Shown piece after piece: positions 1 through 24,509 of a stretch of DNA of 26,375 bases; the stretch's first letter is position 1; every line of letters begins with the position of its first letter. Both the position numbers and the translations under genes were made by a program. Source of the stretch: Chrysochromulina tobinii (Eukaryota; Haptophyta; Prymnesiales; Chrysochromulinaceae); NCBI GenBank assembly GCA_001275005.1, contig JWZX01002779.1, positions 1 through 26,375 on the forward strand. The letters run 5' to 3'. Below the pieces are notes generated by a model. It searched no databases. It was given only the letters and a program-made list of their open reading frames with translations, and was not told where the DNA came from.

Positions 1-686
1 ACCTCGACCGACGTGAGTCCCACTGAACACCACATAAGGCAGGACGCGCATGGGCCCGGCGGCGAAAGGTCCTCGACCAAGGCGGCGTTATCGCAGCACC
101 AGCTGACACAGCACCAGCAGGTGCAGCGTCGTGAGTCCGACGAGTCGAAACAGCGCGACGGGGAGCCGACGCCATCCGAGGGCGAGTCGTGCGCCGGCTT
201 GGTGAGCTCGTCTATCAAGACGAGTGGCGGCAACCGTCTGAGCAGCCGCCATCGCCAGCGGCTGCGGCGCCTTCAACTCGAGTCACTCGGCTCGAGCACT
301 GCCGCCTCCGCCTCAGCATCGGGAGGTCAGCCGTCTGGGGCGACAGTCCCCAAGGCCGAAGTCGCCGCAGAGGCGTACCCAAGGACACGGCTGCGCGCCG
401 TCGTGCTCAGGTGGATGCGCAGCTCGCGCTGGCACCGCATGCAGTACGTGTGGACCCAATCGATGTTACCACACTGATTGCCTCCACATTGATGGTTGAT
501 GGCCGCTGAGGAGATCTGATGGCCTCTTTCATCAGGTACGTGTGGACCCAATGGATGCGCACGGAGGCCGCGTCGTTTGCACGAGGCCCCGCACGGCGGT
601 TGGGGGGAATCTCGGAGTCCATCTCGGAGTCATCGAAGGCCGCGTTGCACCCACGAGGACGCACGGCGGCCGACGTGGAGGTCTAG
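1..686 (+). CDS. unknown protein, tandem copy A (5' end outside window)
   Basis: Exons 1-443 and 536-686, intron 444-535. The family is not recognised. It is the 3' part of the gene found complete at 1672-2844. The frame enters open at base 1. Unspliced, it stops at 475-477; removing the intron joins ATGCA to GTACGTG and extends the frame to TAG 684-686. The 197 visible residues are Ser/Gln/Arg-rich and have no clear domain. Compared with copy B, the coding indels are 3 bp and 12 bp, both frame-preserving, while the intron differs by 7 bp. That pattern supports both the exon model and selection on the protein. The longer frame starting at GTG 13 is only part of this exon. Confidence 0.6.
444..535 (+). 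repeat. intron of copy A with flanking direct repeat
   Basis: A 92-bp GT-AG intron. Its first 22 bases (444-465) match the first 22 bases of the next exon (536-557) with one mismatch, so the donor GT lies inside a duplicate of exon sequence. The 3' end reads CTGATGGCCTC then TTTCATCAG, close to the 3' ends of introns in unrelated genes at 15070-15087 and 20451-20468. It also carries CTGATTGCCTCC, the word that recurs in the other introns. Confidence 0.65.
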
Positions 687-1671
687 GTACACATGCAGGC
701 GAGGGTGTTATGAGGCCGGCGAGGGTCCCGATCAGGGAACCCGCCCTGTGCCGACTCCGACACGACTCCGAGCAAGCGACCGGAGGTGGCCTCTTCCGAG
801 TTGACATCGATTCGGTAGGCTTTAGGCGAACCCGACCGAACGATCCGAGAGAGTGGGGGCTGAAACGCATGCTGGGGCGCAATCAAGGCCTCCTTGTGCC
901 ACGTCGCGCGCGCGCGCACGTGCGGTCCATTTGAGCCAAATCAGACGGAGGGGCCTGCCTCTCTGGACCAGATGTCGACTGTTGACAGCGACAATCCTCT
1001 GTGGTCTGTGCCCGGCAGCTTGCTGGCCATTGAATGATTGCCCATTGGTTCATTCATCATTGGTACCGGTATAATTTTCAGGTAAATCTTCAGTGATTTT
1101 ATAACCACGCCGCACATGAAAAATGCTTACTCAATCACAAATTGTGACTCAACCGTCAACCGGGAACTCTCAACGCTGAACGCGACTTCCGCTCTTAGTA
1201 CTTACATAAGTTACAACTTAGATACGATCCCTATCGCCTAGAACGCCCGACAAATCTCTCGCTCGTCGCTCCCGGCCCGCGGTGTCTTCTAACCATCCCA
1301 ATGAACCCGACCATGCAACCATCCCGGTTAAGGGAGTAGTGTAAAGAAGACACGTTAAAACTTATAAAACTTAAAAGACCACCGAGCGGCGGGGTTCACC
1401 GCGCCCAAGGCAACGCATGAGTATTAAGCGAGTGCACTTAAGTACTCCCCACCCTTGTGCCAAAGGTCAGTTAGAGTGGTGAGCGCGGGGGGACCGCGAC
1501 GAAACTGACGCACTGACTGTGCCGCACTAAGCAAGCAAGCTAATTAGTCGAAACACACAAGTACCTAAACCAGCGCAAACGAATACCCCTGTAGCCAACG
1601 AGGTAGGAAAGGGTGGGCGGAGAGGGAGAGAGATATGCTTGCTTGCTTGCTTGCTTGCTTGCCGCACTAAA
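687..1671 (+). other. spacer between the two gene copies; probable promoter region of copy B
   Basis: About 1 kb without a credible gene. It has a CG dinucleotide run at about 905-917. The stretch 1070-1600 is AT-richer than the rest of the window and includes GGTATAATTTTC near 1067 and TTAAAACTTATAAAAC near 1354. A 10-mer GCCGCACTAA occurs at 1521-1530 and again at 1661-1670, next to GCAAGCAAGC and its reverse-complement tetranucleotide run respectively. I see no RNA gene. Confidence 0.5.
1636..1662 (+). repeat. TGCT tetranucleotide microsatellite
   Basis: Six TGCT-type units end nine bases before the ATG at 1672. The run is in frame with the gene and could be translated only from a non-ATG codon, so it is treated as 5' leader. 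A short complementary run (GCAAGCAAGC, 1531-1540) lies about 100 bases upstream, so the leader could fold on itself. Confidence 0.8.
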
Positions 1672-2844
1672 ATGTCTTCAAATTCGGCGGTGATCGTCGA
1701 CCGAAACCGGCGATCGCGGAGCCTCCGAACTGCTTTCTCTCCGCGGATGCCGGGCTTCCATGGACGACGCGAATGGAGACGGCCAGACCGTGGGGTGCGG
1801 ACCTTCTGGAGCTCCGCAGGCAGTTGGGGCGAGCAGTCGTCCTCAGCTTACATCCCCGTGCAGGCTCCCCCAGCGTACTCCATGCCGGCTTCACCGCCGC
1901 CATCACCTTTTGACCCGGGGATCGACCCGGCAGTGCTCATGCTTTCGCGTGTCGTCAGCAGCGTACAAAGTCGGGCGATGATGGGCCCCGATGCTGGGCT
2001 CACGTGCGCCGCGGCGGTCGCCGCCCTCAGTCTGCTCGAGCAGCTCGAGAGCACGCTACTCGCATCTGTGCACGCTGAGCGTCAGGACCTCTACGCCCAG
2101 ATCATTTGGCACAAGCGCAGCGCGCTCGGGATCGCTACCTCGACCGACGTGAGTCCCACTGAACACCACATAAGGCAGGACGCGCATGGGCCCGGCGGCG
2201 AAAGGTCCTCGACCAAGGCGGCGTTATCGCAGCACCAGCTGACACAGCACCAGCAGGTGCAGCGTCGTGAGTCCGACGAGTCGAAACAGCGCGACGGGGA
2301 GCCGACGCCATCCGAGGGCGAGTCGTGCGCCGGCTTGGTGAGCTCGTCTATCAAGACGAGTGGCGGCAACCGTCTGAGCAGCCGCCATCGCCAGCGGCTG
2401 CGGCGCCTTCAACTCGAGTCACTCGGCTCGAGCACTGCCGCCTCCGCCTCAGCATCGGGAGGTCAGCCGTCTGGGGCGACAGTCCCCAAGGCCGAAGTCG
2501 CCGCAGAGGCGTTCTACCCAAGGACACGGTTGCGCGCCGTCGTGCTCAGGTGGATGCGCCGAGCGCGCTGGCACCGCATGCAGTGCGTGTGCCGGGTGGA
2601 CCCAATCGATGTTGCCACACTGATTGCCTCCACATTGATGGTTGATGGCCGCTGAGGAGATCTGATGGCCTCTTTCTTCAGGTACGTGTGGACCCAATGG
2701 ATGCGCACGGAGGCCGCGTCGTTTGCACGAGGCCCCGCACGGCGGTCGGGGGGAATCTCGGAGTCAATCTCGGAGTCCATCTCGGAGTCATCGGAGGCCG
2801 CGTTGGACCCACGAGGACGCACGGCGGCCGACGTGGAGGGCTAG
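1672..2844 (+). CDS. unknown protein, tandem copy B (complete)
   Basis: Exons 1672-2582 and 2682-2844 give 357 residues. The product is not recognised. Residues 1-50 are Arg/Ser-rich. About residues 65-95 are Pro-rich. A plausible helical stretch follows (about 85-145, with VLMLSRVVSSVQSR and AAVAALSLLEQLESTLL), then a long low-complexity Gln/Ser/Arg region. After splicing, the C-terminus contains a 4-residue repeat (ISES three times). No signal peptide or membrane segment is evident. The start is the first in-frame ATG after the TGCT microsatellite. Splicing at ATGCA/GTACGTG gives a stop at 2842-2844. Copy A preserves this frame across two indels, which is the main evidence that it is a real gene. 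Confidence 0.6.
2583..2681 (+). repeat. intron of copy B
   Basis: A 99-bp GT-AG intron, orthologous to 444-535. The duplicated exon sequence at its 5' end has been disturbed here by 7 extra bases (GTGCGTGTGCCGGG before TGGACCCAAT). The intron therefore predates the gene duplication, and its left repeat is decaying. The 3' end is CTGATGGCCTC then TTTCTTCAG. Confidence 0.65.
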
Positions 2845-4031
2845 GTACACAGGCAGACAGGTGTCGGGGTCGAGTACGCTTCGCCGAAATGGTGTACGGC
2901 CGGTCGGGCCCGATGTCATACGGTCTTACGGTCCACTCGTCGGTTGTTAAGGTTGTGGGTGTTCGTTCGGTTGCGTGCCGGTCTCGTCGTGTCTCGTGTG
3001 GACAGGCGTACAGCTACAGGTGTATCGGACAGTTAGACAGGTGTATCCTGAGGTGTATCCTAGGTGTATCCGGATCGGAGCGACGGCGCGGCGGTACTCG
3101 GTACAGCGTTCTGCGTTGCGGTACGGCGAGGTCGCGCCCCGCGGTGCGCGGGTGCCGGGGTGGCTGCCGGAGCGGGTCTTCCGGGCGCGGTTCGCGTACA
3201 CACATATCGGTCGACGTGTAGCGCGTGTTCGTGCTTCGTGTATGCGTAGCCCGCCGGTAGGAGGTAGGAGCAGGTAGTTTAAATTTTTAGGTCTACCGTC
3301 GACGTTAGTCGTTACCGTGGAGCGTGGTGAGGCGACGACGAGACAGGTCGCACGTCCGCCGACCACGGTCCACGCGTACCCGTACGCGTGGTACGACCGG
3401 ACGCCACGCGGAACGAGTCGGCTTCTTTCGCGTTTCGGTCACAACCATGGCGATTAGGATGACCGATTTTTTCGGACAGCCAGACCTCACCGGTCAGCGG
3501 AACCGAACCGCTGAACCGAACGCCGGCGCCTCCGCCAGACCATGACCGATGACAAGGCCGCCTGGCCGCCCCTGGCCAGCCATACCTCCCTGGCTGTCTG
3601 TGTCTCGTGCGCTCTACTGTACCCACACCACCGCAGCCTATCTGCGAGCACGCCCCCGCCCTGATGCATGCCCCATTCCCCGCGCCATAGTCCCACTGAA
3701 GACGCTCCTTGAGCTCCGCCGCCTCGGGCGCCTCGGCCCGGCGCCTCCGGGCTGCTGTCACATCCCCCCCACTTCCCCACTTCCCCCACGCAGCCAATAG
3801 CGCGGGGAGCGCATCCGTGCCCCCGCGACGGCGCGTCGTGCTGACCCGCTTTCACGCGTCGCGCCGAGAGCTCGACCGGTGAGATCCATCGATCTGCAAT
3901 CGATCTCAATCGATCTCAGCCGCTTTCACGCGTCGCGCCGAGAGCTCGACCGGTGAGATCCATCGATCTGCGATCGATCTCGATCGATCTGCGATCGATC
4001 TCAATCGATCTGCGATCGATCTCAATCGATC
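2845..4031. other. repeat-rich intergenic region, no gene supported
   Basis: Open frames exist on both strands (for example 3312-3797 minus) but they overlap one another, lack ATG starts or recognisable domains, and look like GC-rich chance frames. The region holds AGGTGTATCC-type short repeats at 3036-3072 and, at its right end, a duplicated block and a GATCGATCT array. Copy B's 3' end lies on its left and the kinesin-like gene's 3' end on its right, so it is a spacer between converging genes. Confidence 0.6.
3846..3971. repeat. 52-bp direct repeat, period 74
   Basis: Bases 3846-3897 recur at 3920-3971 (CCGCTTTCACGCGTCGCGCC and onward) with one visible difference. Each copy runs into a stretch of GATCGATCT units. 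Confidence 0.9.
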
Positions 4032-4043
4032 TCAATCGATCTG
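3889..4043. repeat. ATCGATCT minisatellite reaching the kinesin stop codon
   Basis: Short palindromic units alternate as ATCGATCTGCG, ATCGATCTCA and ATCGATCTC. The array runs into the 3' end of the minus-strand kinesin-like gene. Its stop TGA (4032-4034) and last two codons (Ile, Asp) lie inside repeat units. Confidence 0.9.
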
Positions 4044-5897
4044 CTGCCGATTGAGAGGGCGCATGCCGCCGCGCGTGTTGCCTCCGCCGGTGGGCTGCGC
4101 GGGCACGCCCGAGTCGACAACGCGCTGCACCTCGGCCTTGAACGCGGCGAGCTCTGGCTGCGTCGCGCCAAAGGCGGCCTCAAGGATCGAGAGCGAGTGC
4201 GCAAAGAGCGCCGCCGCTTCCGCTTGCTGCCCGTCCTCAGAAAAGGTGAGCGCGAGCGTTGCGAGCTCGCGCGCCGCGCCGGGCAGCACGGCGCGCGCCT
4301 TGGTCGAATTCTCCTCGTGGAGAGAGAGCTCCGCCTCGGCGGTCTCGACGTAGCTCTGGAGAGAGCGCAGCCGCATGCCGATCGCCTGCACGTCCTCTGC
4401 GTGCTGCTGCCGCTGCTGCGCGAACTCGCGCCCGCCTTTGACGGAACTCATCTCGGACTGGAGCTCTGCCATGATAGCGGTGCGCTCGGCGCGGAGCGAG
4501 TACATGCGCTGCGCGTGCTCCTGCCGCAGCATCTCGAGCTGGTTCTGCAGCTGCGACTCCTTGGATGCGAAAGTGCGCGCCTCCCACTGCGTCTGCGCGA
4601 GCGCCTGCGCGAGCTGCTTAATCTCGACCTCCTGCCTCATCACCTCCTCGAGCTGTGGACGCAATTGACGAAGCACTTTGCCCTCGAGCTCATGAAGAGC
4701 TTCCTGCTTGGCGTCGCGCTGCGCCATGAGCTGAGAGGCAAGGGCCTGGTAGTCGACCGACGCCGATGCCTTCGTGCGCGTCACCGCAGCGATCGCGAGC
4801 TGGCCGAAAGCGAGCGCCTGCTGCGTGAGGGCCAGCTTGCGCTTCGAAGGGTGCACGCACACGAGGATGGTGGTTACGCCCTCGGGCGAGGCGCCGGGGC
4901 CGCCGAGCGCGGGCGCGAGGATCGTGGTCAGTGTCGACTCGTGCACCGGCGGCGTCGCCTTCTTCGAGCGCGAGAGGGCTTCGAGGCACTTGCCTGCTGC
5001 CTCAATCGAGTTTGCGAGTGGCTCGTTCGCGGCCTCCTCCCCCGGCGCGCCACGCATGGCGTCGATGGAGGCGAGCGAGCCGAAGATGACGACGCCCGCG
5101 TCGACGCGCAACAGGATGAGTGAGTGCGAGCCCTCGCGCGGCAGCGCCTCCGTGCGCGCGGAGTCCGCCTTCGACAAGATTCGCATCACCTCCTCCTTGG
5201 TCGTCGCCTTCGTCCATTTCGCGTCTTGGCAGATAGCCGCGTGGCCGCTCTGCTCGACGTCGTCGAGGGCGCCCGGATGGATGTTGAGCTCGGTGCAGCC
5301 GATCAGGTCGTGCACCGTCTGGTCGGGCGTGAGCAGCAGATACGCCACATGCACGTCCGCGCCCGTCGATTTCTGCGCCTTGTAATCATCCTCACGCAGC
5401 ATCGAGGCGGCGAGCAAGGAGGTCACGCGCGGCGAGGGCGCGACGAGCGAGGCGGAGCCCTGGAAGATGAGGGCGAGCGCACGCAGCAGAATGCCCTCCT
5501 GCCCGGGCCGCTCGCAACGCAGCGAAAAGTCCTTGCCGGAGCCGCTCGCGCCGAAGCACAGCACGCATCCCACGTTGCCGTTGATCGCCGCCTGCACCGG
5601 CTGCATGCCAACGATGTCGAAGACCTCGGCCTGGCCGACGTGCATCTCGAGCACCTCATCGAAGGCGTACTGGCGCGGCACCAGGTCGCCCATCTCGGCC
5701 TCGTCCTGCTCGCCGAGCGTCCACACGAGCCGGTTGCCGCGGTCGCACTGTAGCGCCTGGTTGTCCTGGCCCTCCTCCTCTGTGAGTGCCGGTCGGATGC
5801 GCAGGATCGCGTTCGCGCGCTCGCCCTGCGTGGCGGCGGCGCCGCCGGCGCCTGGCGAGGCGGCGAGCGGAGCGCGCGCCTTGGGCTTTGGCGCCAT
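4032..5897 (-). CDS. kinesin-like protein with degenerate nucleotide site, coiled coil and a KLC-type TPR
   Basis: One exon, 621 residues, ATG at 5897. Residues 28-375 follow the kinesin motor fold: strand 1 as AILRIRP (30-36), P-loop 116-123, relay-helix region 294-309, PPVHESTLTTILAPALGG (316-333) and the final strand/helix ILVCVHPSKRKLALTQQALAF. Key catalytic residues are missing. The P-loop reads GASGSGKD, with Asp where Thr/Ser binds magnesium. Switch I is reduced to REGSH. Switch II is IFGSLASID instead of a DLAGSE-type sequence. Residues 383-530 are a long coiled coil. Residues 555-592 (AEAAALFAHSLSILEAAFG and on) resemble one kinesin-light-chain-type TPR. It is probably a microtubule-associated protein that cannot hydrolyse ATP normally. 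The family call is firm; the lost activity is inference. Confidence 0.85.
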   Translation of the reverse strand: MAPKPKARAPLAASPGAGGAAATQGERANAILRIRPALTEEEGQDNQALQCDRGNRLVWTLGEQDEAEMGDLVPRQYAFDEVLEMHVGQAEVFDIVGMQPVQAAINGNVGCVLCFGASGSGKDFSLRCERPGQEGILLRALALIFQGSASLVAPSPRVTSLLAASMLREDDYKAQKSTGADVHVAYLLLTPDQTVHDLIGCTELNIHPGALDDVEQSGHAAICQDAKWTKATTKEEVMRILSKADSARTEALPREGSHSLILLRVDAGVVIFGSLASIDAMRGAPGEEAANEPLANSIEAAGKCLEALSRSKKATPPVHESTLTTILAPALGGPGASPEGVTTILVCVHPSKRKLALTQQALAFGQLAIAAVTRTKASASVDYQALASQLMAQRDAKQEALHELEGKVLRQLRPQLEEVMRQEVEIKQLAQALAQTQWEARTFASKESQLQNQLEMLRQEHAQRMYSLRAERTAIMAELQSEMSSVKGGREFAQQRQQHAEDVQAIGMRLRSLQSYVETAEAELSLHEENSTKARAVLPGAARELATLALTFSEDGQQAEAAALFAHSLSILEAAFGATQPELAAFKAEVQRVVDSGVPAQPTGGGNTRGGMRPLNRQQID

Positions 5898-6136
5898 GCT
5901 TCGGCAAGTGAGCAGTCAGGAGCCGATAGGACTTCGAGAGCCGCTTCCAAATCATCGAATCCACCGGAAGGAGAGCCCAATACGGCGCGAAACTTGACAT
6001 AGACTTTCATTTGTATGCAGACACGCTGCCCCCTCTGGCTCTGCAAGCCAAGGCGCTGAAAACCTCGAGGAGAGGATTGGGTGAATGATGACTGACTGAC
6101 TGGGTCGCTCTTCAGTTCAAAGTGGGGTGGGTCGCG

Positions 6137-7607
6137 TCACAGCTCATCCCGCACACCCTCTTCCGACCTTCGACCCTTTTCTGGTGTGTCCCTCAAGGTC
6201 CAGATGGTGCTCCCTACATCGCCGCCCCGCGTGTCGTCCTGCTCGTTCGACACGGCGAGGTACGTGACGCCGCCAATGGAGAAGCCAAGAAAGTCCGTGG
6301 CACCGAGGGTGGGCAGCTTTTGAAGGAGAGTCAGCATGGGGGTGCCCTCCTCCGCCAAGGGGTTGAATGCGTAGACCACACTGTCGCGCCTGTACATATT
6401 GGCCTGCCGATCGCCGAGGTTTGCCACGGCCAAAAAGTGAGACTTGCCATCGGCCGACGAGAAGAACTCGGCCGCGTGCGCGCCATCAGTGGCGACCTGT
6501 GGGGAAGGGGTAGGCGCCGTGGTGAGCACTTGCATGCCGGGCGAGGAGGAGGTCGGCCGCGTGCGCGCGCGCGCGCCATCGATGGCGACCTACCTTCTGC
6601 CGACTGACGAGACGTCCGTTTGGGAACAGTCCGACCCACTCGAAGAGTTCCGAATCTTGCTTGGTGCTGCGCTCGTCCTTATCGTTCGAGTAGAAGGCGA
6701 AGTGCCTGCCGTGAACGCTGACGACCTCGACATCGTGGGCCCCGACTGTGGCGACCTCACTGTGCTTCTCGAAGGCTGAGCCCGCGTCGTTCAGGGCGAA
6801 GATGGTCGAACGTGTGCGCCACCCCGTTTGCCGGGTCACGTAGCTTGCGGCGAGCATCAGCAGCTTCTGCCCCCTATCGGCAGTTGGCACTCGCATGTGC
6901 GCGATCGCCCCACAGCCTGGCGCGGGCACGCGTTGCCATAGCTGGAAGCGCTCTTCGTCCAACGCATACAGCGCCGCTATGCCCAAGTTGAACTCGGCAA
7001 AGGCCAGCATCGGCCGGCCGCCGACGTCCATCGCCTCCACTCCGCCGCCACCGTCGCACTTGACCCGCTGCAGCTCCGTGAAGCGGCGTGCAGCTGTATC
7101 CCAGCGGAGGATGACGGCATCCCCCCCGTAATAGTTGGGCACGGCCAGGTAGTGCCGGCCGCCACTCTCGAGGTGCGCGACCCCGTGTGCACCTGTCGTG
7201 CGAAAGCGCTGCACCTCGGTCAGCTGCAATTGAACTCCGTCGGTAGTCGCCGTGTACACGGCCGAATCCGTGGTCATGCTGGGCTGACGGCCAGGAGCAG
7301 ACGTGAAGAAGTTGGCCACGGCGAGAAAGTCAACGCCGTCGATCACAAAGTGCTCCCATCCCGCTGCGCCTCTGGTCTGAACGGTCGCCGCCTCGAAGAA
7401 AAGCATTTCTGCAGCCTGTGCTTGTGTGGAGGCGCTCATCAGCGCGAGTGTGAGCAATCTGCACTGCGCCTTGTGGCTTCCCCAGTGCTGCCGTTGACAC
7501 TCGCGGTCGCAATACCAGACGCTCTTACATTGCCCACAGCGCGACTTCGCCATGTTGGGTGAGTTGCAGTGGGCACAAGTACGACACTCCATGGCCGTGC
7601 CCGACAT
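6137..7607 (-). CDS. MYND zinc finger plus seven EAR/EPTP repeats
   Basis: Exons 7607-6594 and 6496-6137, 457 residues. An N-terminal MYND finger has all eight ligands: C11, C14, C24, C27, C33, C37, H45, C49. Seven EAR/EPTP-type repeats of about 45-60 residues follow, each with a pattern like GAxxxxxFxxxGxxFLAVAN then a W/Y-rich strand and LxQxx. They start near 75, 136, 183, 228, 286, 339 and 401. Seven repeats is the count that closes the beta-propeller of LGI/TSPEAR proteins. There is no signal peptide, so a cytosolic or nuclear protein-interaction role is more likely than secretion. The frame opens at a TTG (7688), but the first ATG is at 7607; the next, at 7592, would also keep the finger. 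Confidence 0.8.
6497..6593 (-). repeat. intron of the MYND gene with exon-derived 5' end
   Basis: A 97-bp phase-0 intron exactly between EAR repeats 5 and 6 (AAG/GTAGGT ... CCCCACAG/GTCGCC). The first 40 or so intron bases (GTCGCCATCGATGGCGCGC ... CACGCGGCCGA) are a near copy of the start of the next exon (GTCGCCACTGATGGCGCGC ...). Plus-strand 6514-6537 matches 20945-20968, inside a sulfatase intron, at 23 of 24 positions. Confidence 0.75.
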
Positions 7608-13707: not shown

Positions 13708-16308
13708 CTAGATTTGGGAAGCTTGCCTCGTGCGTAAACGGGCCTCGGAGCTGCGTGCCGAGAGGGCTGGGCCGCAGCTGCTGCTCGCAATGAGCGAGGG
13801 CCCGCAGGCGCAGCTGCTGCCCGCGCCCAGTACGACGCCCGGGGCGGGGCCCGAGACGCGCCCGCTGAGGGCTGTCGGCCGAGCGCCTCTACGCGCTGTG
13901 GGGGGCGCGGCGCCGACGACAGAGGTGGACGGTCGTTGGATCTCATCGGGGCGCGCCGCTGCAGAGCCGCTGAGCTTCGTGCCGTTATCGTAGATCTGGA
14001 GCCCATCCTCAAGGTCCTCCTGCGTATACACGTGGGCTGCCTCCGCGCGGATGACCTCCTCGTTGTCGGTGAAGAGCACGGTCTGTACAAAGTCGGTCGG
14101 GGCGTGGAGAGCGGAGCCGACCCGCAGGGGCGCCGGGCGCGCGGTGCCCTTGTAGAGCAGGCTCCCATCGAGCAGCACTTCGAACGAGCGCACGCCCCGC
14201 GTCGACGTCTTGGCATAGTTCCACAGCCGCACCGCGCCGAGGCGCTCCACCCTCCCCAGGTCGATACACACCACATTCGACCGGCCGGGTGTGAACGGCG
14301 CGAGGAACATGTGACGGTCGTCGTACGACGAGTTGACGCCGTCGACGAGCTTATCAACGGTGCGAGGATCGCCTTTGAGATGGGGCAGTGAGGCAATGGC
14401 GGGCGGGTCAGCCAGCAGCTGCGTGGGCGAGAGCCGCAGTGCCATCCCACTAGGGCTCAGCACCTCGAGCCCGTTGAGCCCAATGTAGTGGGGATCTCCC
14501 CATGTGCCTGAAGCGGAAGGACACTCGGACGCACTCAGACGTACTCGGACGCACTCGGACGCAATCAGATGCACTCAGACGCAATCAAGATGCAATCAGA
14601 CGCAATCAAGACGCAATCGGACGCACTCAGACGCAATCAGACGCACTCGGACGTACTCGGACGCAATCAAGACGAACTCAGACGCCATCCAGACGCAATC
14701 AAGAGGCGATTAAGCGTACTGAGCAGCACGAGCTTGATCACCCGACCCGCTGGATGGAGCGTCACAGCATAGTCCTGGAGCATGACTAGTGAAGGCACCA
14801 GCGCGCCGTGCTGGTCGCCGAACTCGGCGCCGAGCGCGCCGATGCCGCCACCGCCGCGCAGGCCACTGCCCGCGCCCGCCGCGCCCGCGCCCGCGCAGCT
14901 CTGCATCAAGCTGAGTGCAGCTGTCATGGGCCGTGTCAGGGCCGAGCGCACCGCCTCTGGCACTTCCTCCTCTGTGGGGCGCAGGGAAGAAGGCGCCTGC
15001 TGCTGCTCGCGCTCGGCCGTGCGTGGCCGCTCGCGGCTGGCACTCCCGAGCTCCGCGACCGGCTCGTACCTGATGAGGGAGGCAATCCGTTGGAAATCCG
15101 TTGGAAATCCGTTGGCAATCCGTTGGCAATTAGGTGGCAATCAGGTGGCAATCAGGTGGCAGTCAGGTGGCAATCAAGTGGCAATCAGGGCCCTTTCGAG
15201 CTCCGCGACCGGCTCGTACTCGAAGAGAGCATGATCATGCTCCTCAAGGCGCGCGAGCACGGCCGGTTCCATCGTGAATAAGATCGGCTCCGCAGCCGCC
15301 TCGGCCTCGTACAGCGAACCTGGCGCCTTGTTCACCTCCCCAAGGAAGATCACCTGCGCGTGGCATAATCAGTGGCCATCAACGAGAGTGCGGCAGCATC
15401 AATGGCAATCAACGGGAGTGCGACATCATCAGCGGCAATCAACGAGAGTGCGACATCATCGGTGGCAATCAACGAGAGTGCGACCTCATCAGCGGCAATC
15501 AACGAGAGTGCGACATCATCAGCGGCAATCGACGAGAGTGCGGCATCATCAGCGGCAATCAACGAGAGTGCGGCGCGGCATCATCAGCGGCCATCCACGG
15601 GAGAGTCACCTGCGCGTCCAGCCGGATCTCGAGCAGACGTGCGCCACGAAAGGAGTGGATGCGGCTCTTGTTGTAGTTCCACACGCGCAGCATCGAGAGC
15701 GTGCGAGGCGCGCCCAGGTCGATGTAAATATAGTTGCGCCGGCCCGGCGTGAACGGCGCCAGCCACAGGTGCGCGTCGTCGCAGGTGCGCAGCGTGCCGT
15801 CGAAGAGGTTGGAGACGACCCGAACGTCGTGTCCGTACTCGGGCAGCACGTTGATGTCGGCCGGATCGGCGCGCACCTGCAGCTCCGGGCTATCGAGCTC
15901 GATCGGGTCGCCGTACTCGTCGAAGAGCTCGAGCGCACTCAGCCCAACGTAGTGCGGGTCTCCCCAAGTGCTGATGATGTCGATCTGCAGGTGCTGCCCG
16001 GACGGCGAGCCGACGAGCACGCCGTAGTCGCCTGGGTGAATGTCCGCGGAAGGCGCAGAAGTCATGGCGGCGGCACGCGGTGGTGGAGCTGCGGGCAGCG
16101 GCGGCGCGGGCATTGGCAGCCCCTGGAATCCTGTGTCAGCCGGTGAGAAGGAGTCGAGATAGCCGCCACTGTTCGATGAAGAGCTTCTGCTGCCGCCCGA
16201 TGTGGCGAGCGACACGTGCTCGACTAGGGCCTCGAGCGAGTCCTCGAAGGCGTCCGTCGGCAGCGACGAACCGGGCACGCGAGAAGCCATTCCGCGCGAA
16301 TTGCGCAT
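13708..16308 (-). CDS. KATNIP: KATNIP-like (katanin-interacting, DUF4457) protein
   Basis: Exons 16308-15610, 15353-15220, 15069-14720 and 14507-13708, 660 residues. All three junctions keep frame (phases 0, 2 and 1). The protein has two copies of the KATNIP domain core: ISTWGDPHYVGLSALELF (112-129) with LWLAPFTPGRRNYIYIDLG (181-199), and STWGDPHYIGLNGLEVL (395-411) with MFLAPFTPGRSNVVCIDLG. Exon 3 ends in VIKLVLL and splices directly to STWGDPHY, as expected for the family. Human KATNIP binds microtubules and katanin and serves cilia; the ciliary role here is inference. The protein is much shorter than the animal one (about 1600 residues), so upstream exons may be missing: the frame is open to a TTG at 16389, and ATG 16308 is the first Met. 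The C-terminal 80 residues are low complexity. Confidence 0.8.
14508..14719 (-). repeat. KATNIP intron 3: 10-11 nt minisatellite
   Basis: A 212-bp intron (CTCA/GTACGC ... CCGCTTCAG/GCACAT). From about 14521 to 14712 it consists almost entirely of GACGCAATCA / GACGCACTCG-type units with 10-11 nt spacing. On the transcribed strand these read TGATTGCGTC. No flanking direct repeat is obvious. Confidence 0.8.
15070..15219 (-). repeat. KATNIP intron 2: minisatellite with 23-nt flanking direct repeat
   Basis: A 150-bp intron (TTCGA/GTACGAGCC ... CCTCATCAG/GTACGAGCC). The first 23 intron bases (15219-15197) are identical to the first 23 bases of the next exon (15069-15047). The donor GT is therefore part of duplicated exon sequence, while the acceptor AG is supplied by the inserted DNA. 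The interior (15083-15190) is 11-nt units GGTGGCAATCA and GTTGGMAATCC. The last 18 intron bases plus GTAC (plus strand 15066-15087) are identical to 20447-20468 at a sulfatase intron. Confidence 0.85.
15354..15609 (-). repeat. KATNIP intron 1: 30-nt minisatellite with flanking direct repeat
   Basis: A 256-bp intron. ACGCGCAGGTGA spans both junctions (exon/intron at 15610/15609 and intron/exon at 15354/15353), followed by similar TCTYCC sequence, so both splice sites lie in duplicated sequence. The interior (15377-15597) is about seven copies of a 30-nt unit, GCAATCAACG AGAGTGCGAC ATCATCAGCG on the plus strand. One unit has a 5-nt insertion. Confidence 0.85.
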
Positions 16309-17109
16309 TCTCGGCGCACGCTTCTCGTTGTGTGGGGAGGAGTTTGTGGAGGGAGCACAATTGGGGGTCGACAAGTCAAAACTGGGCAAGTATTGCTGGC
16401 CCGGGGCGCAGGTCGCCGGGCATCTTTCGGCTCTTTGCCATAGGCGAGCTTATCGGCGACAAGCCTCTTGCGCGATCCTCGCACAGCATCTTTCCAACTT
16501 GTGGTGGTGCGGGTGAGAGCGGCTCGACGCAGCTGGCTCGACGATTGGTCTATTTTATCGAGATCTGGGCGCGCGCCGGGCGGTGGCTCTTGTGGTGGCT
16601 CCTCCTACCAGGACATTCGAACGAGAAGAATGAACGGCAAGAACCTCGAACCACGAACGGCGGAGTTTGGAGGATATCGTCGTCGTGAGCTATCTCCTTC
16701 CCCAAATGCCAAAATGGAGGGAGATGGAGATGCCAGGAGCGAGAGCCCCGCTTCCGATTTACCCGTCGCGTCTGGGAAAGGGCTGGGCGAATGCAGCTGT
16801 GTGCCAGTGTCTCCTGTCCTCCATCGAACATAGGGATTAGAGCTCGTCCCCTCCCCGCGCCGACTGCGCACACCTCTAACGCACACCCGAACCACCCGGC
16901 CACCGACAGATCTAGGATACGCGGGTACCGATCGGATAACCACACACCCGTATCACAGATTCGCCGACACACTCACGCACCTCACGTGATTCATGCTGCT
17001 GCTCTACGTCGAAACACCCACTGTGCCCACTTGTGGGGGTGCTGCTCCTCCCAGCACGAGAATGCCGCATATATCCACTCAGCACGCTCATCATGGCCAT
17101 CGTTGATCG
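16309..17109. other. intergenic, upstream of KATNIP-like gene
   Basis: 801 bp between the stop of the SEC14-like gene and the start of the KATNIP-like gene, both minus. Open frames here (for example 16550-16972 minus) have no recognisable domain. Missing 5' exons of the KATNIP-like gene could lie here, but I could not identify one by a coding motif joined to a splice site. Confidence 0.4.
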
Positions 17110-18414
17110 TTATCCACCGCTGACCATCGTGATCCACGCACTTCCCTCACCGCCGGACCCCTCGTTGTCGGCATGTTTGCTACTGAGCTCCTTCTCCTCG
17201 TGTGGCGCTGTGTTGAGCACCTCCGGGGGAAGGATCGATGCCGGTAGATGCATACGCACTATGTTGTAAGGCGGACCGCTGTGCAGCTCAAACTTGGCGG
17301 CGGTCTCGGGGTCAAGGATGCGCTTCACTTGCTTGACGCACCATGCGCCAATCGACGAGCCGCGCACGATGCACATACAGCCCATGAGCTCAGGGTACCA
17401 ACACTGGCCGACGTTTGCCATGTCCATCCACAAGCCACAAGCCAAGCCACGCATGAACGTGACGACGTTCGGGCGAACGGGCCGTGCGCCGGCGTCGAAG
17501 ATATACAAGTGGCCGCGCTCCGGGTGGGGCGAAGCGCTCACCTTCTTGAGGATCCTCTCGAGGTTGCGGATGTGCACGCGGAGAAGCGCTTTCAGGAGCC
17601 CGTGCTTCTGGATCCAGACTATGTCAAACGCGGCCATGTTGTAGTACACGACGGGGCGCCCGAGCTTGTCGTAGCCGTCGAGGATTCGCGGATTCAGCAT
17701 GGGAGCGAGCCGCGCCGCGAGCTCCGCATCGGGCGGGATCATCTCGCCTTCAATTTCGTCCACACGCTCCGCCGCGCGCCATGCCACGTAATCAGCGTAC
17801 CGCCGTCGCGCGTGCTTCGCTGAGCCTTTAGCCGCTCGCAGGAAGCGCAGTACCGTGAAATCATCGACGCCCTTAAAGGCGCCGCCAGCCTCCGCCTGCA
17901 TCTCGCGAACCAACGCCAGCTCACTGACGGTGGCATCGTATCGTCCTGGCTCTTCCACAGCCGAGGGAGACGGATGCGCATCTGAAGCTGCCGGCTCTGC
18001 AACCGTAGCTGGCAGCCCGGACTCCTTGGTGCCGAGGGGTGTGGAAGATCCAGACGCGACGTAATAGGACGTCTCGGTGCTAGCTAGCCTAGTCTTCGAG
18101 TGAGTACTCGACGACGAGGAGAGTCCGTTGTCGAGAGCTGCTGCGCCACTATCGACGGGCACCGACAGAGTACTGGGCGTTCCATACAGCGCACGCAGCT
18201 CGGAAACACGCGCGAGCGTTGGCCGAGATGGCTGCGGCTCGTTTCCTGTAACGCATCCTGCCATGACAGGAGATCGTCCGGTGCGCCAGGAGCAATTTCG
18301 CTGATCGTTCTGCAATGGGAAAAGTTGGAGCGTGGGAATCTTCGACGAAACCCCTGACGAACTCCGGAACCGGCGCCGCGACGGCGCTTGTCTTCGGGAC
18401 CGGTGCGATTCCAT
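17110..18414 (-). CDS. SEC14-like / CRAL-TRIO lipid-transfer protein
   Basis: One exon, 434 residues, ATG at 18414. Residues 1-160 are disordered and Ser/Thr/Pro-rich. A CRAL-TRIO N-terminal helix bundle follows (162-213: VDDFTVLRFLRAAKGSAKHA, then YADYVAWR). The lipid-binding domain occupies about 240-385: YDKLGRPVVYYNMAAFDI, then LLRVHIRNLERILKK, YIFDAGARPVRPN and the terminal signature AWCVKQVKRILDPETAAKFEL. SEC14-type proteins move or present phosphatidylinositol and phosphatidylcholine at Golgi and plasma membranes. The ligand is not predictable from the sequence. There is no GOLD or kinase domain. The C-terminal 35 residues are acidic and Gly/Ser-rich. Confidence 0.88.
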   Translation of the reverse strand: MESHRSRRQAPSRRRFRSSSGVSSKIPTLQLFPLQNDQRNCSWRTGRSPVMAGCVTGNEPQPSRPTLARVSELRALYGTPSTLSVPVDSGAAALDNGLSSSSSTHSKTRLASTETSYYVASGSSTPLGTKESGLPATVAEPAASDAHPSPSAVEEPGRYDATVSELALVREMQAEAGGAFKGVDDFTVLRFLRAAKGSAKHARRRYADYVAWRAAERVDEIEGEMIPPDAELAARLAPMLNPRILDGYDKLGRPVVYYNMAAFDIVWIQKHGLLKALLRVHIRNLERILKKVSASPHPERGHLYIFDAGARPVRPNVVTFMRGLACGLWMDMANVGQCWYPELMGCMCIVRGSSIGAWCVKQVKRILDPETAAKFELHSGPPYNIVRMHLPASILPPEVLNTAPHEEKELSSKHADNEGSGGEGSAWITMVSGG

Positions 18415-18485
18415 GATGCATGCACGATGGTCGATACATCAGGACACGAGGCAGCTTACCGGTATGTAGACTATACAGTATGGGC

Positions 18486-21400
18486 TCAGCGCATGCTGGG
18501 GCGGAGGCGGGGGGATGTCACATGTAAGCGTCGGTGAACTTCGCCGCGAGCGCCGTCACGAGCACCTCCCCCCGCCTGGACCCATGCGGCGGCTCTATGG
18601 GGCGAGGGCTCCGTCTTCTTCCAGCGCTCATCCCTGGGCACGCGTAGAAGCAGCTCGGCATGCAGATCGCTCAGCAGCACGCGGAACGACTCCTTATCGA
18701 GCCGCATGAGTTTGATCCTCGAGATGGCCGTGACGGTGGCCGAGCGTCGCTCGTCAAAGAGCAAGGCCCTATCCCCAAAGTAATCTCCCGGCTTGAGGAC
18801 GCGCAGCAGCGTCTCGCCGTCAGCCGCGCTCGTGCCCTTCTGCGAGACCGAGCATTCGCCCTCCTCGATAATGTACATCGAGTCAGCTTGGTCTCCCTCC
18901 TTGATGACCAACTCATTCGGCCCTAGCACCACCTCTTCGATCACGTCGACGACGCGCGAGATCTTTCTCCACGAAAGTGAGCCGAAAATCTTGACCGACT
19001 GCAGGAAGCTCTCCTTGGCAGTGCGGCCTGAGACGGCCCCGACGCGAAGGGTGCCGACAAGCGCCACGAGCATGCGCCTTCGCGCCTCCCTGTCGGGCGC
19101 GGCCTCGAGACTCCCGTCGACCAGGCTCACCTGCAATGAGGGAGGCCATCAGCATGCCATGAGGGAGGCCATCAGCATGCCATGAGGGAGGCCATCAGCA
19201 TGCCATGAGGGAGGCCATCAGCATGCCATGAGGGAGGCCATCAGCATGCAATCAAGGAGGCCATCAGCATGCAATCAAGGAGGCCATCAGCATGCAATGA
19301 GGGAAGCCATCAGCATGCGATGAGGGAGGCCATCAGCATGCCATGAGGGAGGCCATCAGCATGCAATGGGAGCCCCCCCTTGACCAGGCTCACATTCCAC
19401 TCGCGCACGGCCACACGAAGCAGCCGATCGCGCCAGCCACGGTACTGGTCGTCGTAGGCCACATTCTTGGTCTCATTCACGTCCAGCTCGCGGTCATACA
19501 ACGTCTCGTCGAAGATCCGCTCGATACCACGCCTCGCGTGCAGCCCGCGCCATTCGACCGGGTAGAGCACGAGCGTGTACGCGAGGCGTCGGGTGCGCAG
19601 GTACAGCTGGCGTGTGCCGGGGGGCAGCCACCGGTCATTCGGCGCCAACAGTGGCAGCTTGTCCTCACTCGGCTCGCCATGAAGGAGGAGCCCTGCGTGA
19701 ACCATCGGGAATCGAAGCGCGCGGGAATCGAACAGCGCGCCCTCATCTCGAGTGATCTCGAGTGATCTCGAGTGATCTCGAGTGCTCGTCCCGAGATGCC
19801 GAGGCATCAGATGCAATCAGAGGTTATCAGAGGTCATCAGAGGCAATCAGAGGCAATCAGTGGCCCTTGGCTTACGCTCATGCAGCTCGGAGCGAGCAAA
19901 CCATCGAGGCCATCGCTCCTCGGCTGCACGCCCGGATCGCAAGAATGGCATCAGGGAGAGCCCCTCCAGCTCGACAACAGGCTGTCCAGGGAGCCTCACG
20001 GACTTTCGGCGATGCGCCGTGCGACGCCCACCGGTGGTGGAAGTCGACGACGACGCGGGTGCCGACGACGACGCGGGTGCCCAGGACGACGCGGGTGCCC
20101 ACAAGTCGAGTAGGGTGGGCAAGATGTCGAGAGCTTCGACAGGCGCCATGATTTCCATGTCACGGGGCGCGAGTCGATCAGTGAGACCCGGCACAGCGAT
20201 GAGCAGCGGGATGCGCGTCGCCTCTTCATGCAATGTGTACTTGGACCATCGCGCGTGCTGGCCCAGGGCAAACCCTGCGAGGCGAGATTGGAGGCGAGAT
20301 TAGGCCGAGATTGCATAGAGATTGCAGGCGAGGGGCGCACCGTGATCGGAGTGCACGACGATGGCGGTGGTCGAGGCGAGTTGAAGCTCATCAAGGGCTG
20401 TGAGTAGCGCGCCGATCTGGGCGTCCACGTGTGTGGCGCATCCGTGGTACCTGATGAGGGAGGCAATCAGTGGCACTCAGGGAGACCATTAGCTGGCAAT
20501 CAGGTGGCAATCAGAGGCACTCAGGGAGGCAATCATAGGGAATTGAGTGGCAATCAGAGGCACTCAAGGAGGCCATTGAGAGGCAATCAGTAGCATTCCG
20601 TGGTACCGGGCGATAGTCTCCTGCTGATCTCGTCGTGAGACGGCATGGGCGAGCAGAGCCGCCCGCTCGTCGCCCCTGTTGCTCCATCGAGTCCAGCTAA
20701 GTGCACACCCCGGGGGAGTGGTAGTGAGCGGGAGGGAGCGGTCACCCATAATCAGTGGTAATCAGTGTTAATCAGTGGTAATCAGTGGTAATCAGTGGCA
20801 ATCATCAGGGAGAGCGTGGTGGCGGGGGGCAAAGGTGCGTCGGACTAGCGCGTGGCGAAGAGCGGCGTACAGGTCGTGATTGATATTGGTCGTCAGCGGC
20901 GGGTTGCGTTCGTCGGACAGCCTGGCAGCGATCGGCCATGACTCGCGCTGTGGTGAGCACTTGCATGCAAGACAGGTCCTCAGTGGCAATCAACGCACCT
21001 GGCAGCGATCGGCCACGACTCGCTCGTCTCATTACGCCAATGCAGCACCTCGTAGCTCACCTCGTGCCACCCTCGGCCGTTGCTGTTCGGCTCCATAACC
21101 GGGTTGGAGCATCGAGCGTACGGGGCGACGACGTGCGTCTTCTGGAGGCCGATCGCAAGAAAGAAACGACGGCGCGTGCTTGCTATCTTCGAGAGCGCTG
21201 CGACGGCGCGGAGGACCTTCTGTTGGTCGTGCGTGGGGTGCTTTTGGACGGCGGGCCAGACGGTTGAGACCGACCTGACGGCCTCGTGAAGTCGAGCATG
21301 CTCCGGGCTCGAGAGGTTGTGCGCCCAGCCATCCGGTTCGATGGTGACGAGCCCGAAGCCGCGCGCGCTCGACTCGCACGACTCGTGGAAGATCTTGCCT

Positions 21401-21915
21401 CCCGCGCAGAGCACCACGGCGGCTGGCGAGCTTTTGCTGGAGGCGTAGGCATTCAGAAAGTCGGTGAGGGTAGGCAGCTCGACTGGGTCGTTCGAGGCGT
21501 CGTCGTTGCTAAATATACGCGTCGCGCTGGGCATGCGAGAGGTCATTAAGGACGATCGCGACGGGTTGCACAGTGGAGCCTGGCAGTAGGCACGCTGGAA
21601 GGTGACCGCACGTTTGGCCAGGCGCGCCAAGTGTGGCGTGGAGCCGAGGCTGTGCGGGTTGAAAACGGGCGACGCAATGGTCCCAAAGTCCTCCAGCACG
21701 ATGTACAGGATCCCATTCAAAGCGGAAGACCCCGCCGCCGCTGGCGCTGCGGCAGGCGCCGCCACTGCTGATGCCGCTACTGATTCTGGAGCCACTGCGA
21801 CTGCTCCGATTGCAGCCGCCGCCTGGCGCCAGCGTGGTTGCGTGTCACGCCATGCACGCGCCTTCTTCTTGGACTGCGACATGCTCCGCGGATCGTATTG
21901 GACTGCGACAGACAT
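18486..21915 (-). CDS. sulfatase apparently spliced to a cyclic-nucleotide-binding domain
   Basis: Exons 21915-20999, 20921-20871, 20696-20607, 20450-20341, 20274-19876, 19746-19394 and 19130-18486; 854 residues, all junctions in frame. Residues 68-640 are an iduronate-2-sulfatase-like enzyme: C116 in CNPSR, the Cys that becomes formylglycine; GGKIFH (172-177); LQKTH (257-261); HSDHG (386-390); K401. The first metal pair reads ED (75-76) instead of the usual DD. Exon 7 encodes one cyclic-nucleotide-binding domain (about 686-795): VIKEGDQADSMYIIEEGE, then the phosphate cassette FGDRALLFDERRSATVTA. The N-terminus is basic then Ala-rich, without a clear signal peptide. Less certain points: the exon 2/3 junction, the exon 6 acceptor (19746 or 19776), and whether exon 7 is a separate gene starting at Met 19073. 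In that case the sulfatase would end at 19310. Confidence 0.68.
19131..19393 (-). repeat. sulfatase/CNBD intron: 23-nt minisatellite with flanking direct repeat
   Basis: A 263-bp phase-0 intron (GGAAT/GTGAGCC ... CATTGCAG/GTGAGCC). GTGAGCCTGGTC begins both the intron and the next exon, with similarity continuing for about 18 nt. The interior (19135-19371) is about ten units of GGCATGCTGATGGCCTCCCT plus CAT on the coding strand, with two base variants. Each unit resembles a 3' splice region: CTGAT, a pyrimidine stretch, then CAT. Confidence 0.8.
19747..19875 (-). repeat. sulfatase intron 5: 10-nt repeats
   Basis: The intron starts at a good donor, GAGC/GTAAGCC, and carries six TGATTGCCTC-like 10-nt units (19800-19865). 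Four 10-nt ACTCGAGATC units follow at about 19745-19786. The acceptor falls in this last array, at 19747 or 19777; both keep frame and differ by 10 residues. No clear flanking repeat. Confidence 0.6.
20275..20340 (-). other. sulfatase intron 4 (66 bp)
   Basis: CACG/GTGCGCC ... CCTCGCAG/GGTTTG. Removing it restores the sulfatase motif SDHG followed by FALGQHARWSK, so the junction is well supported. The interior has AATCTCGCCTC repeated near the acceptor. No flanking direct repeat. Confidence 0.85.
20451..20606 (-). repeat. sulfatase intron 3: TGATTGCC repeats with flanking direct repeat
   Basis: A 156-bp phase-2 intron (CCCG/GTACCACGG ... CCTCATCAG/GTACCACGG). GTACCACGGA is repeated at the intron start and the exon start. 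The interior is a loose array of CTGATTGCCTC, CTGAGTGCC and CTAATGGTC words. Its terminal 22 bases including GTAC are identical to those of KATNIP intron 2. Confidence 0.85.
20697..20870 (-). repeat. sulfatase intron 2: 10-nt repeats
   Basis: Proposed as CT/GTACGCC ... GCACTTAG/CTGG, 174 bp, phase 2. It contains five to six CCACTGATTA 10-nt units (20750-20808). Donor and acceptor are the least secure in this gene: frame and the position in the sulfatase fold support them, but there is no strongly conserved motif across the junction. Confidence 0.5.
20922..20998 (-). repeat. sulfatase intron 1 with exon-derived 3' end
   Basis: A 77-bp intron (GCTGCCAG/GTGCGTTGATTGCC ... GCTGCCAG/GCTGTC). The last 25 intron bases (20946-20922) repeat the last 25 bases of the preceding exon with one mismatch (GCGAGTC, R, TGGCCGATCGCTGCCAG). 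Here the acceptor AG comes from the duplicated exon and the donor GT from the insert, the reverse of KATNIP intron 2. The insert holds the 24-nt core shared with the MYND-gene intron. Confidence 0.85.
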
Positions 21916-22013
21916 GTCGTGGATACGTCTTGGACCCGTGACGAAGTGCGACTATTTTTGGAAGCGCGATCAAGTCTAAGATCACGATCACAACTCAGAT
22001 GAGAAATAGTGGC

Positions 22014-24474
22014 TCACATGCGCCTCCATGGACGTTGAGGCGAGGCCGAGCGCGACCTCGAGTCGTACCGACCTGAGCTTGCACTCCTACTGGGTGCGCG
22101 GCGCCCGCCACTGCGCTCATCGCGGCGCTCATCGCCGCGCTCGTCGCGGCGCTCGTCGCGGCCGCTGCGGGGCTCATCCTGTCGATCCTTCTCGCGCGAG
22201 TGCCCCCGGCGCCGCTCACGGTGTGAACGCTCACCACGGCGCTCGCGCTCGTGCGAGTGCCCCCGGCGCCGCTCACGGTGTGAACGCTCACCACGGCGCT
22301 CGCGCTCGTGCGAGTGCCCCCGGCGCCGCTCGACACGCGCCCCGTCATGCCGCTCGTCAAACCGCTCGTCACGCTCAAGCCGTGGACGCTCATCACGGTG
22401 TGAACGCTCATCACGGCGCTCGCGCGCCGATGCGCGGTGGTGCTTGTGCCGATGCTCCCGTCCTGACGAACCCGAGCGATGCGAGGACGCGTGGCGCTCA
22501 GCACGGCGCTCGGCGTGAGAACGCTCACTACGGTGGGAACGCTCACCACGGCGCTCGCGCTCGGACGAGTGATGATGATGCCGCCGGCGCTTTTCGCGCC
22601 GTTCCGAGCGGTGATGCTGCCGGCGGCTGTCCCCGCGATCTCGCTCATGGAGATCGTCCACGCTGAACGCGTCGTCGGCGGCGTCGCTGACGTCGCTGGT
22701 GCCGCCCGCGTCGCGCCGCGTCGCTGCCACCGCTGAGAGCGTCGCCGCTGACCCGGTTGCCCTCGCCGCCGCGATAGCGCCGTCCCGAGCGCCGTCCTCC
22801 CTCGCGTGGTGAGGGAGCGGGAGCGGGAGCTGGAGCGGCGGCTTCTGAGGCTGAGGCTGTGGCTGTGGCTGAGGCTGTGGCTGCGGCTGAGGCTGAGGCT
22901 GCTGCGACGACGACGCGCCCGACGACGCGCCCGACAACGCGCCGGGCAACGGCCCTGGCAATGCCTCCGACAGTGCCTCCGACCCGCGAGCGCCGTGGTG
23001 AGCGTTCACACCTGGCAGCGCCTCCGACAGAGCCTCCGACTTGGTGTGAATGTGAATGTCGACTTCCGACCCGCTCGGCCGCGCCACATGGGTTTGCATC
23101 GGCGAGGCCAGCAGCACCATATCGTCATCGACCTCCACCATCAAGGGCAGATCGAGCGCCGTGTCGGGCAGACTGCGCGCCGTGTCGGGCAGACCGAGCG
23201 CCGTGTCGGTCAGACTGCGCGCCGTGTCGGGCAGACTGAGCGCCGTGTCGGCGGCTCGAGCACCGCCGCGGCCACCTTCGAAACCACCTTCGAGTGCGTC
23301 GCCACCGGCTTCGAATGCGCCATCCTCGGCTCCGGCGTCGCCACCACCTCCGCCGCCACCTCCGCCTCTACCTCCGCCACCGCCACCGCCACCACCTCCA
23401 CCACTGCCGCCTCCGCCTCCGCCGTCGCCGCCGCCTCCGCCTCCGCCTCCGCCGCCTCCGCCGCCGCCGCCTCCGCCGACGCATCCACCGCCAGCTCCAG
23501 GCTCTGGCCAATGGACGCCATGATACTCGTCGAGCACACGCCTCGCGATGTCGTCGAGTAGCACCTCACGCACGCCGAGCAGCATCGCGCGCATCAGATG
23601 CTTCACCTGATGAGGGACGCAATCCGAGCTCATTAGCATCGCTGATGAGGAACGCAATCCGAGCTCATTAGCATCGCGCGCATCAGAGGCCATCAGCATC
23701 GCGCGGCGCATCAGAGGCTTCACCTCCGCATCTATCATCCTCTCTTCCTCCGCCGTCAGCGCACGCGCCGTCGCGCCCTCGCCACCCGCACTGCTGCTGC
23801 TGCTGCTGCTGTCTAGGTGTGCTGTGCCGTTCTCGCCGCCGACGCCGCCGCAGTTGTCGCCGTGTGCCGCCCCGTTGCCGCTTCCGCCGATTTCGTCACG
23901 CCCGTTGCCGATTTCGTCACGCCCGTTGCCGATTTCGTCACGCCCGTTGCCGATTTCGTCACGCCCGCTTGAGGCGCCGATTTCGTCACGCCCGCTCGAG
24001 GCGCCAGCGCGTGCGTCGCAAGGCGTCGTAGTGGGCGCCGGCAGCGTCGGCGGAGCCGCCGAGGGCCATTCAGCTTCGTCAGCTTCGTCAGCTTCGTCAG
24101 CGGCGCCATCGCCATTCGGATTAGCAGCGGACGAAGCCACGGCCTTTGGGGCGGTCTGCTGCGGCGGCGGCGGCGGTGGCTGCGGCTGCAGGTGCGGCGG
24201 CGGCTGCGGCTGTTGCTGCGGCTGCTGCTGCGGCTGCGGCTGCGGCTGAGCGGGCTGCTGCTGCTGCTGAGTGGGCTGCTGCTGCTGCTGCTGTCCATAG
24301 TCGTGCCAACTCTGTTGGTGTTGGTGGAGCTGCTGGTATTGCTGCTGGTGTTGCTGCTGCTGCCTCTGCGCGTGCTGCTTGTAGTGCTGCTGCTGCACAT
24401 AATGTTGATGTGACTGAGGCGAGAGCTGCGATTGTGGATACCACAGCCCGTGGTGTTGCTGCTCGTGCACATGT

Positions 24475-24509
<35 letters not shown>

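Follow-up and report, generated by a model that had tools for sequence, protein, structure and literature searches.

Most of the repeat-flanked introns in a 26,375-nucleotide (nt) contig of the haptophyte Chrysochromulina tobinii (JWZX01002779.1, hereafter the window) look like the product of short mobile sequences that inserted at splice-like sites in genes. The explanation that accounts best for them, and which we regard as likely on the sequence evidence, is that they are spliceosomal introns made by introners, through staggered-break insertion at a proto-splice site and probably with copying from RNA. The initial annotation of the window had already proposed repeated intron gain of the introner type, a proposal now strengthened by thousands of matches to common inserts, by long duplications, and by insert-free paralogs at two sites. 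The window is contig C1621 of assembly G000 (53.15 Mb in 2253 contigs; GC content of 62 to 67% across six sampled stretches), and all genome-wide searches cover this assembly.

Repeats spanning the splice sites of window introns

The initial annotation had listed nine introns with direct repeats at both ends, all of which have GT at the start and AG at the end when read on the strand given or implied. Together with three further introns that we located (14508-14719, 20275-20340, and 20697-20870), they were submitted to an anchored test, which scores the best ungapped repeat extending over both the donor and the acceptor boundary at a register shift of at most 5 nt. Eight of the 12 introns reached a score of at least 9 (repeat lengths are given in Table 1), compared with none of 130 cross-paired donor-acceptor controls (maximum, 8) and 1.6% of 5000 random GT..AG pairs of equal spacing. 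The proposed check of intron-end repeats against controls, run here on the window introns, thus came out in favor of the repeats. The three additional introns had no anchored repeat (scores of 3 to 4). A looser, unanchored repeat test was set aside, since arrays inside the introns score by themselves and a value of 16 is attained at 5.4% of 3000 random positions. An Rfam scan of the window gave no match at the gathering threshold.

The remaining listed intron, 2583-2681, had an anchored score of only 6, owing to a short insertion in its first repeat copy; a boundary-free search finds a 19-nt repeat at a shift of 7. As this intron sits in a duplicate of the segment that holds intron 444-535, it is not an independent event, and the nine listed introns represent eight events. 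The stretches from 1 to ~700 and from 2137 to ~2855 are near-identical (judged partly by eye), reflecting either a segmental duplication or an assembly overlap.

Two cassette families throughout the genome

Two cassette families, which we call F1 and F2, recur across the assembly. F1 ends in CTGATTGCCTCCCTCATCAG, and the pattern formed by this 3' end plus GT has 4141 matches at up to 3 mismatches (reversed-pattern control, 0), a number that can exceed that of introns because arrays give several matches per intron. The F2 cassette is about 40 nt long and consists of GCATGCAAGTGCTCACCACGGCGCC, a run of pyrimidines, and CCCCACAG; its 19-nt core gives 2191 matches at up to 2 mismatches (control, 1). 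An unselected 60-kb sample from six contig starts contained 3 F1 and 2 F2 matches, in agreement with the genome-wide densities. The hosts are unrelated genes (among them sulfatase, KATNIP, MYND/EPTP, SNF2, DSP, and JmjC), and the common sequence extends up to the intron boundaries.

The copies come in two arrangements, so that the earlier suggestion of a borrowed splice site on either side proved right for both. In the usual one, type a, the donor GTRCG opens the first duplication copy, and a branch-like region, a pyrimidine tract, and AG close the cassette. In the minority, type b, the cassette itself starts with the donor GTRCGTTGATTGCC or a similar sequence, and the acceptor, CAG or AG, lies at the end of the duplication; copies of this kind are 20922-20998 in the window and others in loci L003, L036, L055, and L059, and the longer type-b head has 152 matches genome-wide (control, 0).

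The pyrimidine tract of F2 type a (F2a) is hypervariable, with 83 distinct versions among 100 listed of 190 copies chosen by an identical 25-nt head and 8-nt tail. This suggests error-prone copying, although several sources could also explain it. Cassette length is 1 modulo 3 in 57 of the 100 listed copies. Among 31 F2 type-a introns in the sampled loci, intron length is 2 modulo 3 in 20, 0 in 9, and 1 in 2, and 22 of the 31 are free of stop codons in all frames; F1 introns show no length bias (13/9/10 of 32), and 30 of the 32 are stopped in at least two frames. Frame-specific decay was rejected as a cause of the F2 length bias, since off-frame stops show only a small difference in seven window genes (2.09 versus 1.76 per 100 codons).

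The minisatellite interiors that the initial annotation had ascribed to these introns occur in the F1-type introns only; 6497-6593 and 20922-20998 each contain a unique cassette instead. They are a trait of one of the two families, separate from the mechanism.

Long duplications at a proto-splice site

Duplications were measured in a sample of 282,695 nt, mostly chosen for its cassette matches. It holds 114 distinct F1 ends, 100 of them with enough flank; repeats scoring at least 12 were found at 40 of the 100, some of them tandem units of duplication plus cassette or F1 arrays, compared with 2 of 100 when the downstream piece was taken from another locus. For F2, 42 of 62 heads had a recognized acceptor end and enough flank and were used (20 were left out), and 34 of the 42 had repeats scoring at least 14 (null, 2 of 42). 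Duplications starting at AG are 13 to 58 nt long in F1 (39 of 62; median, 26) and 16 to 45 nt in F2 (33 of 34; median, 30). The two copies of a duplication have a median identity of 0.957 in F1 and 0.951 in F2, with 10 and 6 identical pairs, respectively, so that some insertions look recent.

Most copies with a measurable duplication lie at G|GTRCG. Over 71 sites, position -1 is G in 62, +1 is G in 65, +2 is T in 61, +3 is A or G in 63, and +5 is G in 52. Genome-wide, the base after exact F2a copies is G in 190 cases and another base in 7. Random insertion surviving in noncoding DNA would be expected to give many more non-G cases, and selection for splicing would explain part of this pattern.

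Loci L023, L039, and L063 contain tandem repeats of entire duplication-plus-cassette units, possibly arrays of intron, microexon, and intron. At L007:773-2600, three F2 inserts have differing duplications and share one private variant (GCTCATCAC), a hint of local copying. Re-insertion from neighboring copies was rejected as a general pattern by an all-pairs test (4 of 120 same-contig pairs versus 3.6 of 132 after shuffling).

Insert-free paralogs

Of 14 joined sites that were prepared, seven were run against the whole genome, giving five matches outside the source contigs; four were compared, and the one on C2168 was left out. The SNF2 site gave 180 with the intron removed versus 120 with it kept against its paralog on C312, and 108 versus 84 against that on C2110, while the DSP site gave 136 versus 120 against C2204. 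Insert-free paralogs at these two F2 sites indicate that insertion into an exon most probably created the introns. The stretch C1014:5000-5600 (L082), a paralog of the L047 gene, has an F2-like acceptor end of its own, a sign of independent insertion.

Indirect evidence for excision as introns

Judged from frames and domains, the F1 and F2 segments are probably spliceosomal introns: in the tested genes, taking them out yields an open frame as well as conserved domains. Open frames result from intron removal in the window genes examined; the sulfatase profile reaches 103.3 bits on the spliced product compared with 43.6 on the first exon frame, and the EPTP profile 101.8 bits spliced compared with 74.8 unspliced. 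When joined peptides from five sites outside the window were scanned for domains, three had a junction-spanning domain above the cut-off (DSPc, 75.2 bits; SNF2, 73.4; JmjC, 42.8); of the other two, one had a DEAD match of 23.2 bits, short of the 26 required, and one no match.

KATNIP homologs whose sequence spans the positions of introns 15354-15609 and 15070-15219 run through them without an insertion there; in one of them, P0011, an insertion lies about 8 residues past the position of 15354-15609. The best-ranked relative with an organism name comes from the haptophyte Chrysotila carterae (51% identity); eight proteins rank above it, seven of them 66 to 83% identical and one 54%. The N-terminal start of homolog P0006 (92% identity in the alignment) resembles the read-through end of the KATNIP F1 intron. 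The coding score around inserts is higher on the cassette strand in 27 of 38 F1 and 22 of 33 F2 cases (positive in 22 and 19, respectively); given that 255 of 420 random 300-mers are positive on either strand, this speaks for a strand preference only.

Searches for a partner enzyme and a vehicle

The RVT_1 profile has 26 matches in the assembly, of which only the best was classified; it carries an RT_RNaseH domain and is presumably of the long terminal repeat type. None of six reverse transcriptase loci inspected contains F1 or F2. One weak match to a LINE (long interspersed element) endonuclease and four to GIY-YIG were found. The exact F1 pattern has no matching contig in IMG/VR, and the exact F2 core has one, L075, in searches that may miss near records. 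The final 60 nt of this contig (4495-4554) contain an F2 cassette followed by GTGAGT; its frames look phage-like by eye, and it is probably a chimeric assembly. On these exact-pattern searches, we dismissed a viral vehicle.

Weighing the explanations

If introners made these introns, insertion would follow a staggered break, of which one edge is set by a proto-splice site while the other lies at a variable distance from it. The inserted strand would probably be copied from RNA, by target-primed, LINE-like synthesis or by one-ended reverse splicing into DNA, and the duplicated exon stretch would provide the missing splice site; slippage of CTGAT units would then enlarge the F1 interiors. As far as geometry can tell, target-primed or one-ended reverse-splicing insertion matches the arrangement of parts seen here. 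It is tempting to speculate about an RNA-templated intron maker, whose ~40-nt cassette would bring either a donor alone or just the branch region, the pyrimidine tract, and AG, with one end joined to the proto-splice site and the other strand cut at a variable distance (~13 to 45 nt); we put this more specific version forward tentatively, with less than even confidence. With such a templated origin, the pyrimidine tract may be rewritten at each copying. Variable-length duplication, a trait of LINEs and short interspersed elements (SINEs), is present in both families. The F2a 3' end is fixed at CACAG, many copies start with GCATGC, and a longer form exists in type b.

Several observations weigh against introner insertion as outlined here. 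No convincing autonomous partner was found in the assembly, and a 5'-truncation series is not clear, the ends of the F2 cassette being precise. For F1, a gapped repeat test gave 62 of 104 with a high null of 14 of 104, 23 of the 62 repeats do not start at AG, and 35 of the 114 ends are not followed by GT. To the eye, most F1 duplications longer than ~42 nt consist of tandem units or extend into arrays, and since these inflate the upper lengths, we use ~13 to 45 nt as the working range. The ends of the type-b copies in L003, L036, and L055 have only ~6 to 8 nt in common (by eye), so that long duplications are secure in type a and in the window's type-b copy but not across type b. Since type b fixes the edge opposite to that of type a, it may be selection for splicing, and not an enzyme, that makes the edge specific. 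The DUF4457 profile reaches 277.9 bits on the spliced KATNIP product, while the two parts score 128.4 and 155.4; as the spliced score is no higher than their sum, it does not itself back the junctions. Lastly, the comparison of L047 with C1014 is a near tie (99 versus 102) that discriminates nothing, because C1014 has an F2-like end of its own, ~45 nt upstream of the point at which L047 received its insert. What lowered our confidence in particular were the limited overlaps in type b, the overstated upper lengths in F1, and the score of DUF4457.

Non-autonomous cut-and-paste DNA transposons, that is, introners of the miniature inverted-repeat transposable element (MITE) type, have been proposed for some algal introners. 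They would suit the tendency of F1 inserts to open with CTGAT and close with ATCAG, a 5-nt inverted pair noted by eye, although CTGAT also matches a branch point and no inverted ends were seen by eye in F2. Duplications or inverted ends are also described as frequent in other introner families (PMC9860276). However, DNA transposon families are described as generally having a characteristic duplication length (PMC8969392), whereas duplications here vary (16 to 45 nt in F2, n = 33) instead of having a short fixed length of 3 to 9 bp, a spread that makes a cut-and-paste origin improbable. Variable direct repeats are what repair of staggered double-strand breaks with captured filler would leave, as in Daphnia, where the report gives 4 to 12 bp for the repeats shared with exons (PMC4202315). 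Here the repeats are longer, either of two conserved cassettes with thousands of matches serves as the filler, and the G after 190 of 197 exact F2a copies is not expected of random breaks, so we judge this route, too, unlikely.

The other alternatives fare worse. The initial annotation had also named a route in which an exon segment with AGGT is duplicated in tandem, so that the added copy turns into the intron. Intron 15354-15609, with ACGCGCAGGTGA at both ends over both splice sites and AGGT in the middle of the repeat, is at most the one case that fits; such duplication cannot supply the common foreign cassette that lies between the copies in F1 and F2 introns. As a general route it is ruled out by this insert, and we give it very little credence. 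If an excised intron were fully reverse-spliced into mRNA, with reverse transcription and recombination to follow, proto-splice-site insertion and the precise AG end would be accounted for. That route should leave no duplication, and the AG-starting duplications at 33 F2 and 39 F1 sites make it very unlikely, unless the reverse splicing involves a single end. That the segments are not introns at all, or are dependent copies, namely, minisatellite arrays or assembly artefacts with ends matching by chance, could draw on the duplication-plus-cassette arrays of L023, L039, and L063; it is hardly credible in view of domains that continue over junctions, two sites with insert-free paralogs, and anchored repeats above controls.

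Features of the window

The host of intron 23607-23723 is a long low-complexity frame (22014-24881) with Q/H, G, and R/E repeats and without a Pfam match.

Table 1. Introns of the window and the repeats at their ends
Feature	Position	Strand	Anchored repeat (nt)	Details
F1 intron	444..535	+	22	Duplication copies 444-465 (donor side) / 536-557; 21/22 nt identical, anchored; spliced frame open
Insert of 444..535	466-535	+		Ends with TTTCATCAG
Segmental duplicate of the 444-535 intron	2583..2681	+		First repeat copy with short insertion
F2 type-a intron, MYND/EPTP gene	6497..6593	-	26	Repeats 6566-6591 / 6473-6498, 4 nt out of register
F2 cassette of 6497..6593	6497-6537	-		
Comparison intron, KATNIP gene	14508..14719	-		10-nt minisatellite, no anchored duplication; inferred from open frame and homologs
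F1 intron, KATNIP/DUF4457 gene	15070..15219	-	23	Repeats 15197-15219 / 15047-15069, 23/23 identical; 11-nt minisatellite inside
30-nt minisatellite intron, KATNIP gene	15354..15609	-	12	Repeats 15606-15617 / 15350-15361 (ACGCGCAGGTGA) across both splice sites
F1-like intron, cyclic-nucleotide-binding gene	19131..19393	-	12	Repeats 19382-19393 / 19119-19130; 23-nt minisatellite; spliced frame open
F1 intron, sulfatase gene	20451..20606	-	11	Repeats 20597-20607 / 20441-20451
F2 type-b intron, sulfatase gene	20922..20998	-	26	Repeats 20998-21023 / 20921-20946; donor from insert, acceptor from duplication
F1 intron, low-complexity gene	23607..23723	-	20	Repeats 23706-23725 / 23589-23608; 35-nt repeat interior

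Significance and comparison with known systems

How introns spread is an old question, and the best answer at present is introners, for the most part interpreted as DNA transposons. With thousands of cassette matches, long duplications, sharp sites, and some identical pairs, the step that joins cassette and exon should be readable from sequence in this genome, and comparing strains should give rates of intron gain. Intron gain would be tied to the chemistry of splicing if insertion at proto-splice sites is due to the mechanism and does not come from selection alone. The survey of Gozashti et al. (2022, PMC9860276) describes the removal of low-complexity introner families by hand, a filter that could have hidden families like F1.

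F1 and F2 are most likely introners, a known kind, with duplication lengths outside those that we found reported for introners; as the initial annotation suggested, the mechanism may be new. The remark in the initial annotation that the repeats are longer than typical target duplications therefore holds: earlier introner families are described with repeats of 3 to 9 bp (PMC9860276) and MITEs in general with duplications of 10 to 15 bp (PMC7789003), and no report of introner duplications longer than ~12 bp was found in the literature searched, supplements excluded.

Like the introners described by Gozashti et al. (PMC9860276), F1 and F2 are families of similar introns that arise by insertion in many copies and carry one splice site while recruiting the other from the duplication, in either arrangement. 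In that account, many families have inverted ends, and 3- to 9-bp repeats are named for earlier ones, whereas those found here have variable duplications of ~13 to 45 nt, a ~40-nt cassette, and a hypervariable pyrimidine tract. The same account covers another haptophyte, Chrysochromulina sp. TARA_PON_109_MAG_00232, whose introners carry the donor and recruit the acceptor, as type b does here; compared by description only, they differ in their 4-bp duplications and in that the majority class here carries the acceptor. The introner elements of Amoebophrya, as described in PMC7789003, are likewise repeated introns with direct repeats at exon-intron boundaries, but with repeats of 3 to 5 nt, inverted repeats of 8 to 20 nt, and noncanonical splice sites, in contrast to the long duplications and mostly GT-AG boundaries of F1 and F2. 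New introns in Daphnia (PMC4202315) share direct repeats, ascribed to staggered breaks, and internal repeats; they have exon-sharing repeats of 4 to 12 bp, and a common cassette is unmentioned in the part of that report considered here, whereas F1 and F2 have a conserved cassette and a fixed type of site. With target-primed insertion of LINEs and SINEs, as outlined in PMC8969392, they have in common duplications of variable length; unlike such elements, they come without a tail, a clear 5'-truncation series, or a cognate LINE found here.

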